From Devosia pacifica (lineage in GTDB: Bacteria > Pseudomonadota > Alphaproteobacteria > Rhizobiales > Devosiaceae): a DNA stretch of 64,000 nt. Where the stretch lies: contig NZ_BMZE01000001.1 in NCBI RefSeq assembly GCF_014652635.1, forward strand, positions 754,051 through 818,050. The letters are read 5' to 3'. This document shows, piece after piece, positions 27,122 to 29,979 of this stretch. Made by a program: the position numbers and the translations under genes. The notes under the pieces were generated by a model. That model had not been told where the DNA came from. It saw only the letters and a program-made list of their open reading frames with translations, and ran no database searches. The stretch's first letter is position 1; each line of letters opens with the position of its first letter.

Positions 27122-27676
27122 CTACATTCCCTCGGGACCGCGCGATATTGCCGCCACACCGGTGCGTACGACTTCGATCAGACCGAGCGGCACCATCAGG
27201 GAAATAAAAGAGTCTATTTTCGAGGGCTTACCCGTCACTTCGAAGACGAAGCTTTCGGTTGTCGCATCGACGATGTTGGCGCGAAAGGCATCGGCAAGGC
27301 GCAAGGTTTCTGCGCGATGCTCGCCTGATCCGCCGACTTTTATCAGCGCCAGCTCACGCTCGAGCGAAGCACCTTCGGCCGTCAGATCATGCACCTTGTG
27401 CACCGGCACCAGGCGCTCCAGCTGCAGCTTGATCTGAACCAGCACCTTGGGCGTCGCCACCACCACGACAGTGATGCGGCTTAAGCCCTTGTCGTGCTCG
27501 GTCTCGCTGACAGTGAGACTCTCGATGTTGAACCCACGTGCCGAGAACAGGCCGACAACGCGAGCCAAAAGGCCGGGCTCGTTATCCACCAGAACCGATA
27601 GCGTATGCCGCTCCGGAGCATCGGTTTCCTTGGTAATGAAGTAGGCCGATCCAGTCGGCAGAAGATGAGCGTTCAT
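27122..27676 (-). CDS. ilvH: Acetolactate synthase regulatory (small) subunit
   Basis: 184 residues. N-terminal ACT domain (about 22-95) with HTLSVLVDNEPGLLARVVGLF and the valine-sensing region, then the C-terminal IlvH domain (REL.LIKV pattern, FEVTGKPSKIDSF). It activates the large subunit and confers feedback inhibition by valine. 27 bp downstream of the large-subunit gene, GGAGAT before the start. Confidence 0.97.
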   Translation of the reverse strand: MNAHLLPTGSAYFITKETDAPERHTLSVLVDNEPGLLARVVGLFSARGFNIESLTVSETEHDKGLSRITVVVVATPKVLVQIKLQLERLVPVHKVHDLTAEGASLERELALIKVGGSGEHRAETLRLADAFRANIVDATTESFVFEVTGKPSKIDSFISLMVPLGLIEVVRTGVAAISRGPEGM

Positions 27677-27703: not shown

Positions 27704-29467
27704 CTAGACGAGCTGGCGCCCTTTTTCGTCAATGATCGATCCGATATTGGCTGTATCGGGCAGGATGATCTCGTTGTGTGGCTTGCCCGACGGGATCATC
27801 GGCAGGCAGTTCTCATCCTTTTCCACGAGGACGTCGAAGAGAACCGGTCCTGGGTAATCGAGCATCTCCTGGATCGCAGCATCGAGCTCGGCAGGGTTGT
27901 CGCAACGTATGCCCTTGCCGCCATAAGCCTCTGCCAGCTTGACGAAATCCGGCAGGCTTTCTGAATAGGAGTGCGCGTACCGGCCGCCATGCAGCAGGTC
28001 CTGCCACTGCCGAACCATCCCCATACGCTCATTGTTGAGGATGAAGATCTTGATCGGCAGCCGATACTGCACCGCCGTCGACATTTCCTGCATTGTCATC
28101 TGAACGCTGGCTTCGCCGGCAATATCGATAACCAGCGCATCCGGGTGCGCCACCTGAACGCCGACAGCCGCAGGCAGGCCGTACCCCATCGTGCCCAGAC
28201 CGCCAGAGGTCATCCACCGGTTCGGCTTGTCGAAATGGAAGTGCTGCGCGGCCCACATCTGGTGCTGCCCGACCTCGGTAGTGATGTAGACATCACGGTC
28301 CTTGGTCATTTCGTACAGTCTGGCGATCGCGTATTGCGGCTTGATGGTCGTTTCCGATGGCGTGTAGTTCAGCGACTTCACCTCACGCCAGCCCTCGATC
28401 TGCTTCCACCAGTCTGCAATTGCCTCGGTGCGCGGCTCGTTGGTTATCGAGCGGTAAAGCCGAACCATTTCCTCGAGCACCAGCCCGCAATCACCGACGA
28501 TCGGTAGATCGACACGGACATTCTTGTTGATCTGCGCCGGATCGATATCGACGTGAACCTTGGTCGAGTCCGGAGAAAACGCATCGATCCGTCCGGTGAT
28601 ACGATCGTCGAACCGCGCGCCGATATTGATCATCAGATCGCAATCATGCATCGCAAGGTTGGCTTCGTAGGTGCCGTGCATGCCAAGCATCCCAAGCCAC
28701 TGCGGATCGGACGCCGGGAATGCTCCCAGCCCCATCAGGGTCGAGGTGACGGGAAAGCCGGTCAATTCAGCCAACTCACGCAAGTGCTTGGACGCTTCCG
28801 GGCCCGAGTTGATCACACCACCACCGGAGTAGATCACCGGACGCTCGGCGCGCAGCATCATCTCGACGGCAACTTTGATGGCCTCGAGATCCCCTTGCGT
28901 CTGCGGCTTGTAGCTCGAATGCCGGAAACCGTCGGCCTCCGGACGGGTATACTCGCCGAGGGCGAACTGGACATCTTTCGGAATGTCGATCACCACCGGG
29001 CCGGGACGCCCGCTGGTAGCGATATGAAAAGCTTCATGAAGAACCCTTGGGAGATCCTCAACGCGCTTGACCAGATAATTATGCTTGGTGCAGCTGCGCG
29101 TGATGCCGACCGTGTCGCATTCCTGGAAACCGTCCGAGCCGATCAAGGTGGTCGGGACCTGCGCGGTGATGCAGACCAACGGGATGGAATCCATCAGGGC
29201 ATCGGTGAGGCCGGTAACAGCATTGGTTGCTCCCGGACCCGACGTAACCAGCACCACACCGGGCTTGCCCGTCGAGCGTGCATAGCCTTCGGCCATGTGG
29301 GTCGCACCCTGCTCGTGGCGCACCAGAATGTGCTGAACACTGTCCTGCTGAAAGATCGCATCATAGATCGGGAGTGCTGCACCACCGGGATACCCGAAGA
29401 TGTGCTGCACGTTCTGGTCGATCAGAGCCTGCACAACCATTTCTGCGCCGGTCATTTGTTCGGCCAT
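27704..29467 (-). CDS. ilvI: Acetolactate synthase catalytic (large) subunit
   Basis: 587 residues from ATG 29465-29467. ThDP enzyme: GYPGGAALPIYD, the catalytic glutamate region RHEQGATHMAEGYAR, FAD/PYR domain signatures, and the PP-domain metal loop, which reads IAGEASVQMT rather than the GDGS of most ThDP enzymes; this GEAS form is seen in alphaproteobacterial homologues. It makes acetolactate and acetohydroxybutyrate. It is preceded by a terminator, leader peptide and promoter consistent with attenuation control. Confidence 0.97.
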   Translation of the reverse strand: MAEQMTGAEMVVQALIDQNVQHIFGYPGGAALPIYDAIFQQDSVQHILVRHEQGATHMAEGYARSTGKPGVVLVTSGPGATNAVTGLTDALMDSIPLVCITAQVPTTLIGSDGFQECDTVGITRSCTKHNYLVKRVEDLPRVLHEAFHIATSGRPGPVVIDIPKDVQFALGEYTRPEADGFRHSSYKPQTQGDLEAIKVAVEMMLRAERPVIYSGGGVINSGPEASKHLRELAELTGFPVTSTLMGLGAFPASDPQWLGMLGMHGTYEANLAMHDCDLMINIGARFDDRITGRIDAFSPDSTKVHVDIDPAQINKNVRVDLPIVGDCGLVLEEMVRLYRSITNEPRTEAIADWWKQIEGWREVKSLNYTPSETTIKPQYAIARLYEMTKDRDVYITTEVGQHQMWAAQHFHFDKPNRWMTSGGLGTMGYGLPAAVGVQVAHPDALVIDIAGEASVQMTMQEMSTAVQYRLPIKIFILNNERMGMVRQWQDLLHGGRYAHSYSESLPDFVKLAEAYGGKGIRCDNPAELDAAIQEMLDYPGPVLFDVLVEKDENCLPMIPSGKPHNEIILPDTANIGSIIDEKGRQLV

Positions 29468-29538
29468 TGCCTTATCCTTCCTCACCGGGCGCCATCACCG
29501 CCCTTACCTGCAAAGCCGGCGTGAACCAGCCAATAAAA

Positions 29539-29558
29539 AAGGCCCCTTTCGGGACCTT
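29539..29558 (-). terminator. Attenuator terminator upstream of ilvI
   Basis: AAGGTCCC-GAAA-GGGGCCTT followed by T on the minus strand (29558 to 29535): 8-bp stem, GNRA-type tetraloop, six-T run. It ends about 68 bases before the ilvI start and belongs to the leader-peptide attenuator rather than to any upstream gene. Confidence 0.88.
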
Positions 29559-29587
29559 GTTCGGCGCATCAGCTATCGCGCGGGAAC

Positions 29588-29638
29588 TTATCCCACGTTG
29601 CCGATGCGCCAACCTACTACGAGAATGATAGACCGCAC
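29588..29638 (-). CDS. ilvIH leader peptide
   Basis: 16 codons starting GTG (29636-29638) after GAGGAG: MRSIILVVGWRIGNVG. Five consecutive branched-chain codons (Ile, Ile, Leu, Val, Val) plus a later Ile and Val are those that enzyme products must charge. The end of the peptide overlaps GGCGCATC (29603-29610 on the plus strand as GATGCGCC), which pairs with GATGCGCC downstream (29563-29570). This is the textbook design of ribosome-mediated attenuation: stalling at Ile/Leu/Val codons changes leader RNA folding before the terminator at 29539-29558. Confidence 0.85.
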   Translation of the reverse strand: MRSIILVVGWRIGNVG

Positions 29639-29668
29639 GGGGTCGCTCCTCAGTCGAATACCGCAAAA

Positions 29669-29697
29669 CAGATAAAAACTTGCTTCGGGTGTGTCAA
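29669..29697 (-). promoter_or_regulatory. Promoter of the ilvIH operon
   Basis: Minus-strand TTGACA (29697-29692), 17-base spacer, TATCTG (29674-29669). Transcription would start near 29662, about 25 bases before the leader peptide GTG. Confidence 0.7.
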
Positions 29698-29738
29698 GAA
29701 AAAGCTCGACTATATATCCCGCCGACGCGGGAAAGAAA

Positions 29739-29762
29739 AAGGGCCACCTTGCGGTGGCCCTT
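29739..29762 (-). terminator. Rho-independent terminator of cspA
   Basis: Ten-base arms AAGGGCCACC/GGTGGCCCTT around a 4-base loop, followed on the minus strand by T-run (29740-29735). It starts 7 bases past the cspA stop. Confidence 0.92.
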
Positions 29763-29769
29763 CGTCAAA

Positions 29770-29979
29770 TCAGTCTGCAGCCTGCAGATTTGCAGCAGAG
29801 GCGCGGCCATCACGGCCGGTCTCGAGATCGTAGGTCACCTTCTGACCTTCGGTCAGGGTGTGCATCCCGGCGCGCTCAACAGCGCTGATGTGGACGAATG
29901 CGTCCTTGCCACCGTCATCCGGGGAGATGAAGCCGAAGCCCTTGGTGGTGTTGAAGAATTTGACGGTACCAGTCGTCAT
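29770..29979 (-). CDS. cspA: Cold-shock protein CspA family
   Basis: 69 residues from ATG 29977-29979 with AAGGA upstream. RNA-binding motifs RNP1 KGFGFI (14-19) and RNP2 DAFVHI are intact in a five-strand OB fold. It binds single-stranded nucleic acid as an RNA chaperone and melts mRNA secondary structure. The 5' region is long (to about 30211) and could hold a temperature-sensitive leader, as in other cspA genes; I did not fold it. Confidence 0.95.
   Translation of the reverse strand: MTTGTVKFFNTTKGFGFISPDDGGKDAFVHISAVERAGMHTLTEGQKVTYDLETGRDGRASAANLQAAD

Follow-up and report, generated by a model that had tools for sequence, protein, structure and literature searches.

A probable ribosome-mediated transcription attenuator before ilvIH in Devosia pacifica, matching the Rfam family Atu_C8

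Architecture of the ilvI leader

The window, by which we mean the whole stretch of 64,000 nucleotides from Devosia pacifica that was analyzed, carries on its minus strand ilvI, coding for the large subunit of acetolactate synthase 3 (27704–29467, with the ATG at 29467; NF006581, 1111.6 bits against a cut-off of 974), and, downstream of it, ilvH, coding for the small subunit (27122–27676; NF008864, 220.1 bits, cut-off 119). By IlvI, the nearest named relatives belong to Devosia. Directly upstream of the ilvI leader, on the same strand, lies a cold-shock-like gene (29738–29979), whose NCBIfam matches fall below the curated cut-offs and which has a strong terminator of its own (29763–29738).

A sequence-only reading of this region had described a promoter, a GTG-started peptide of 16 residues with a ribosome-binding site, a stem and a terminator, in this order before ilvI, and all of these, the promoter as a promoter-like site, were found on the minus strand. 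The −35 element TTGACA (29692–29697) is followed, after a spacer of 17 nt, by a probable −10 element, TATCTG (29669–29674). Among 27 aligned leaders from Devosia and near relatives, 26 have TTGAC at a distance of at most 85 nt before the leader start, and TATCAA stands near the place of the −10 element in 11. The promoter is present in this sense, but its −10 element is weak, matching TATAAT at 3 of 6 positions, and a strict sigma-70 scan reported no promoter at the window leader; we infer both the promoter and the transcription start site from these sequence elements. The Shine-Dalgarno motif GGAG (29646–29649) lies 7 nt before the start codon, and GGAG is found close before the start in 22 of the 27 leaders. 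The leader ORF (29588–29638) starts with GTG at 29638, codes for MRSIILVVGWRIGNVG and ends with TAA at 29590–29588. Its control codons ATC ATT CTC GTA GTA (29615–29629) specify Ile4, Ile5, Leu6, Val7 and Val8, and the stem described below is reached from Val7–Val8. A candidate start-codon hairpin, GACC/GGUC, was also seen in the window.

Downstream of the control codons, segment 1 (TTGGCGCATCGGC, 29600–29612, with the core GGCGCATC at 29610–29603) and segment 2 (GCTGATGCGCCGA, 29561–29573, with the core GATGCGCC at 29570–29563) are assigned by folding and covariation as the 5′ and 3′ arms of a protector stem. This stem has up to 13 pairs (29612–29600 with 29573–29561) and encloses an inner hairpin (29579–29597) that contains the leader stop codon. 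The intrinsic terminator follows as the hairpin AAGGTCCC-GAAA-GGGGCCTT (29539–29558), in which GGGGCCTTTTTT is invariant in all 27 aligned rows, together with a T-run (29535–29540); the Rho-independent terminator with a GNRA loop, as originally described, was seen at 29558–29539 with T residues to 29535. The loop itself is not a family trait, GAAA being found in just 2 of 72 called leaders (the window and L003). The cores GGCGCATC and GATGCGCC, which had been described as overlapping pairing segments, do pair with each other, but they overlap neither one another nor the terminator arms; they form the protector stem rather than a pair mutually exclusive with the terminator, and an antiterminator is predicted weakly. 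The Trp codon, previously left unexplained, finds an explanation in the RNA: TGG runs into the stem arm TGGCGC. The residue at this place is variable, being Trp in 6 of 71 leaders (the window, L016, L017, L059, L061 and L066), Arg in 30, Lys in 10 and others in 25. The Trp codon is incidental, and no tryptophan signal is needed.

Conservation, covariation and family identity

Out of at least 594 relatives found by IlvI, the best 80 were kept for comparison of the leader, so that near relatives are over-represented; 78 loci with at least 300 nt upstream, the window included, were compared, after dropping three (L002, L036 and L076) with 58–109 nt upstream. A leader and terminator were called at any score in 72 of the 78 IlvI upstream regions, and a leader with a run of at least three Ile, Leu or Val residues plus a terminator in 71, the window included. 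The strict score (a terminator plus a leader with at least four of six residues I, L or V) was reached in 64 of the 78 real upstream regions, against 1 of 390 first-order Markov copies of them. By eye, three of the six uncalled loci have a leader (L035, L042 and L051) and L064 has one without the stem region, while no leader was seen by eye in L052 and L071. In the counts given below, L039, a spurious ORF call, was excluded from the run, fold, partner and residue analyses and included in the set of 70 leaders used for stem distances; the start codons of L007, L008 and L022 were shifted by hand to the conserved start for codon counts, folds and aligned-leader counts; and identical runs or leaders were counted once in the run-codon and 66-leader fold analyses.

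In the 27 aligned leaders, 96.7% of 540 cells of the stem, inner hairpin and terminator are paired (98.9% of the terminator stem cells), against at most 58% for slid versions of the structure. The structure was derived from this same alignment. Cells with two-sided changes number 26, compared with 6.7 ± 2.1 in shuffles, which ignore kinship, and none of 500 shuffles was as high. All of these changes fall in the stem (2 of 7 pairs) and the inner hairpin (4 of 6 pairs), and none in the terminator. Weaker measures of covariation are less decisive: the number of pairs with two-sided changes (6) was matched by 13 of 500 shuffles and the count of pair types by 32 of 500. The peptide and the stem named in the sequence-only reading are thus both conserved in relatives, as that reading required, the leader in those 71 loci and the stem in the 27 leaders. 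At Mesorhizobium loci such as L057 and L060, a −10 element lies, by eye, so near the leader ATG that the mRNA may be leaderless or almost leaderless, whereas the Devosia form has a Shine-Dalgarno motif.

The leader also matches an existing Rfam family, RF02502 (Atu_C8), at 29524–29639 on the minus strand (58.0 bits, gathering threshold 50). The match is full-length (model positions 1–122 of 122; E = 1.9e-9 over the whole window) and is the single one in this genome. The stem, the inner hairpin, the terminator and the leader ORF of the window all recur in the family consensus. Its consensus line reads AUG AUU AUU CUU GUG GUG GGC CCG CGC AUG GGC AGG GCG GUG UAA; the peptide coded by it, M-I-I-L-V-V-G-P-R-M-G-R-A-V-stop, is a branched-chain leader of the same design as that of the window. 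Matches were found in 47 of 61 genomes (that of the window included) and in 0 of 14 controls, and in 161 of 297 genomes sampled from the order. Rfam classes RF02502 as an sRNA gene rather than a cis-regulatory leader; a literature search by the name Atu_C8 found nothing related.

Attenuators of this kind have been described before ilvI and ilvB in Alphaproteobacteria. In the available parts of the sources, a leader CDS with tandem Ile and Val codons is said to attenuate ilvIH of Caulobacter (PMC4117421), a leader peptide of an alphaproteobacterial ilvB is termed previously described with reference to Vitreschak et al., 2004 (PMC1273637), and an “ilvIH cis regulatory” element of S. meliloti is tabulated with the same reference (PMC2573895). 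As in the window, a short ORF with branched-chain codons and a terminator stand just before the acetolactate synthase genes, and no difference in kind was found between the window element and those of Caulobacter (ilvIH and ilvBN) and S. meliloti. The window element is therefore a member of the known alphaproteobacterial ilvI/ilvB attenuators, and the system is not new for Alphaproteobacteria.

The valine codons and the position of the ribosome

The family shows a marked preference at the codon nearest to the stem. In 63 of 70 leaders, Val is the final branched residue ahead of the stem; this final residue lies 7–8 nt upstream of the stem in 48 of 70, and its codon is GTA in 54 of 70. In this set, L020 and L021 have a wrong stem and give no distance, and doubtful stems in some others (L024, L031, L033, L037 and L079) are the source of most non-valine cases. 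Elsewhere GTA is rare: among Val codons it accounts for 36 of 3495 across the 80 ilvI genes, for 0 of 45 in the ilvI gene of the window and for 80 of 1118 in 33 long window ORFs, some of which are perhaps not genes. Among 37 distinct control runs the last codon is GTA in 26, and the runs as a whole use GTA for 50 of 70 Val, ATT for 28 of 42 Ile and CTT for 22 of 48 Leu codons. The Ile and Leu codons are also biased, though the rarest ones are not favored, and so the GTA preference could have another reason. GTA is not universal either, since Rhizobiaceae-like leaders have GTG GTG and Phyllobacterium has GTG. The window genome has tRNA-Val genes with at least the anticodons UAC, GAC and CAC (30 of 43 tRNA match loci scanned). 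Attenuator theory, in the part of PMC1183508 available, holds that the choice of synonymous codon sets the sensitivity to supply. As far as our partial survey of the literature on alphaproteobacterial ilvI/ilvB leaders extends, neither the GTA bias nor the geometry of the last valine appears there.

The dependence on ribosome position was examined by folding a transcript that ends just after the 5′ arm of the terminator, with all bases up to the front edge of the ribosome blocked. The front edge of a ribosome lies 12 nt past the first A-site base, and this value was used; 15 nt was also tried. In the window, the predicted pairing of the terminator 5′ arm with upstream sequence is 0.03 with the ribosome at Ile4, 0.00 at Ile5 and 0.02 at Leu6, and it is 0.36 at Val7 and 0.29 at Val8 (0.60 at Val8 with the edge 3 nt further). 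Beyond the run it is 0.60–0.62 at codons 9–11, 0.00–0.10 at codons 13–15 and 0.37 at the stop codon; the state without a ribosome gives 0.49 in the window and a mean of 0.41 in the family. The same rise is seen across 66 distinct leaders, with means of 0.05 two codons before the last codon of the run, 0.19 one codon before it and 0.47 at the last codon, followed by means of 0.35–0.54 beyond the run and 0.45 at the stop. Folding the full-length leader with a parked ribosome was rejected as a test, the terminator reaching 1.00 in all window states and 0.98–1.00 in the E. coli controls as well.

According to these folds, the 5′ arm of the protector stem would be covered by a ribosome stalled at Val7–Val8 and not by one at Ile4–Leu6. 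Since pairing increases at the final one or two codons of the run, a ribosome held up earlier in the run is predicted to leave the stem closed, and the stem would first be opened from the last valine codons. The expectation that a ribosome parked at codons 4–8 frees the terminator arm thus holds for Val7 and Val8, whereas Ile4, Ile5 and Leu6 leave the stem intact. A leader tuned equally to Ile, Leu and Val, with stalling effective at any of codons 4–8, would agree with the presence of all three residues in the commonest runs (LILVV in 18 and LILV in 15 of 71 leaders); we nevertheless regard it as unlikely, since the stem stays closed in the folds with the ribosome at Ile or Leu codons, and 63 of 70 leaders have Val as the branched residue adjoining the stem. 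Of the three amino acids, valine would be the main signal.

The E. coli trp, thr, leu, ilv and his attenuators share with the window the placing of control codons shortly before alternative RNA pairings, followed by a terminator. In the same folds, the upstream pairing of the arm in trpL, thrL, leuL, ilvL and hisL is about 0.6–0.8 at most control codons, and often at earlier codons too, with a drop at the last one or two control codons (0.41 in ilvL, 0.21 in hisL) and values of at most 0.14 at the stop; trpL at its Trp codons reaches 0.71, compared with 0.29 at Val8 of the window. The window differs in that its early control codons give no such pairing, its last ones a moderate amount and its stop codon a value not close to zero. 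Compared with the E. coli attenuators, the antiterminator modeled here has less strength and uniformity, a point against reading the leader as a textbook case. No conserved antiterminator emerged from 65 leaders (L039 and L079 left out). With the ribosome at the last valine, segment 2 takes 0.23–0.31 of the partner mass of the arm in these 65 leaders, and the remainder is spread over the arms of the inner hairpin and the rest of segment 1. One candidate in the window, UGGGAU/GUCCCG with GUUC/GAAC and GCGCG/UGCGC (edge 3 nt further), was rejected, its GUUC/GAAC helix occurring in 0 of the 26 other aligned leaders.

Attenuation of ilvIH and a second use of the leader

Taken together, the anatomy, the conservation, the covariation in the stem and in the inner hairpin, the biased codon usage and a predicted fold that varies with ribosome position make it very probable that the ilvIH operon is controlled by ribosome-mediated transcription attenuation, through an element like those known from the ilvI/ilvB leaders of other Alphaproteobacteria. 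The leader peptide and the RNA hairpins most likely switch on branched-chain synthesis when charged valine tRNA is low. When the leader is read without delay, the stem between segments 1 and 2 would re-form, the terminator would form right after it and a leader RNA of about 130 nt would be released. If charged tRNA reading GUA ran short, the ribosome would pause with the codon of Val7 or Val8 in the A site and its leading edge over the first bases of segment 1, and the stem would open; pairing with upstream sequence could then keep the 5′ arm of the terminator occupied until RNA polymerase has entered ilvI. Termination, read-through and the partner of the arm in the antiterminated state are thus predicted steps of this scheme. 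The branched-chain attenuation proposed by the sequence-only reading is retained as the best reading, but its treatment of stalling at codons 4–8 as equivalent is not. The element is real, well conserved and ordinary in kind, and its sensing codon is stated here more sharply.

It is improbable that the RNA of about 120 nt acts mainly in trans, as an sRNA or through its peptide, with attenuation as its source. Rfam types RF02502 as an sRNA, the peptide tail past the control codons is conserved among Devosia, and the available part of PMC7298713 describes a trpL attenuator RNA and peptide, rnTrpL and peTrpL of Sinorhizobium, that act in trans. However, the tail is coded by the stem arm, so that RNA pairing can account for its conservation, and the constant position of the element ahead of ilvI (71 of 78 loci, which were selected through IlvI) favors action in cis.

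Least probable of all is a switch linked to initiation, in which the ribosome-binding region would pair with the 3′ arm of the terminator and its occupancy would set read-through: with the 5′ end left free, the terminator probability does vary in L009 (0.00 without a ribosome and at codons 7–14, 0.89–1.00 at codons 3–6) and L003 (0.38 without a ribosome, 0.00–0.35 at codons 7–11), and GGTCCC stands before the start codon in 10 of the 27 aligned leaders, but the other 17, the window among them, have no GGTCCC there, and the window terminator is at 1.00 in all states of the same test. This GGTCCC lies in the ribosome-binding region and resembles the terminator 5′ arm; the predicted folds of L003 and L009 pair it with the 3′ arm.

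Reading the leader as an attenuator suggests a plain function, that of ilvIH attenuator, for members of an Rfam sRNA family. The most conserved sensing element is one rare valine codon at a fixed distance, a simple test case for the theory, as presented in the available part of PMC1183508, that attenuators pick the synonymous codon most sensitive to supply.

A second use of the leader was found outside the window. Twelve same-genus genomes have two RF02502 matches each. In 11 of the 12, the second copy lies before a gene of the Bcr/CflA type of MFS transporters (TIGR00710, 201.3 bits, cut-off 200.9); in the twelfth (G036), the weak second match (30.1 bits) is a terminator alone, behind a cold-shock-like gene, and was set aside. 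The loci surveyed for the transporter were L083–L092, L108, L118–L131 and L136–L148. MFS homologues with at least 74% identity, the query included, have the leader in 11 of 11 cases, with GTA GTA in 10; a valine leader was seen by eye before three homologues at 47–52% identity (L129, L130 and L131), and none before four at 36–37%. In the window genome, no such MFS homologue was found at 1e-60.

In the order sample, an MFS homologue was found at 1e-80 in 17 of 297 genomes. A leader was called in 9 of these 17 and seen by eye in one more (L129), and was not found in 7, which include L138 and L139 from the window’s own family and one with short upstream DNA. The ten transporter leaders span six families (f1, f23, f24, f28, f36 and f38), and all contain valine. 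GTA is found in 6 of the 10 and is kept in the genus. Since GUG replaces GUA in the other 4, the exact isoacceptor may differ in the transporter copies. The paralogy is plain in G222, where ilvI is preceded by the leader MKIAVALIVVGRRMGRVV and the transporter gene by the leader MKIAMVLIVVIERMGGMA. A targeted literature search named no case of a valine leader before an efflux-type transporter, which is not proof of its absence in print.

We tentatively propose, as a possibility that we hold at somewhat less than even, that Atu_C8 is a portable sensor of charged valine tRNA, a Val codon, mostly GUA, placed 7–8 nt before a stem that is closed by default, and that Hyphomicrobiales use it for ilvIH and, in at least six families, as a paralogous valine-rich copy for a Bcr/CflA-type MFS efflux transporter. 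Such a paralogous valine leader would tie amino-acid sensing to transport; if the proposal is true, the pump would be raised by a shortage of valine and likewise by any drug that retards the ribosome on the leader. In another genome (G058, contig C1049, locus L188), the second Atu_C8 copy lies before an acetolactate synthase large-subunit-like gene.
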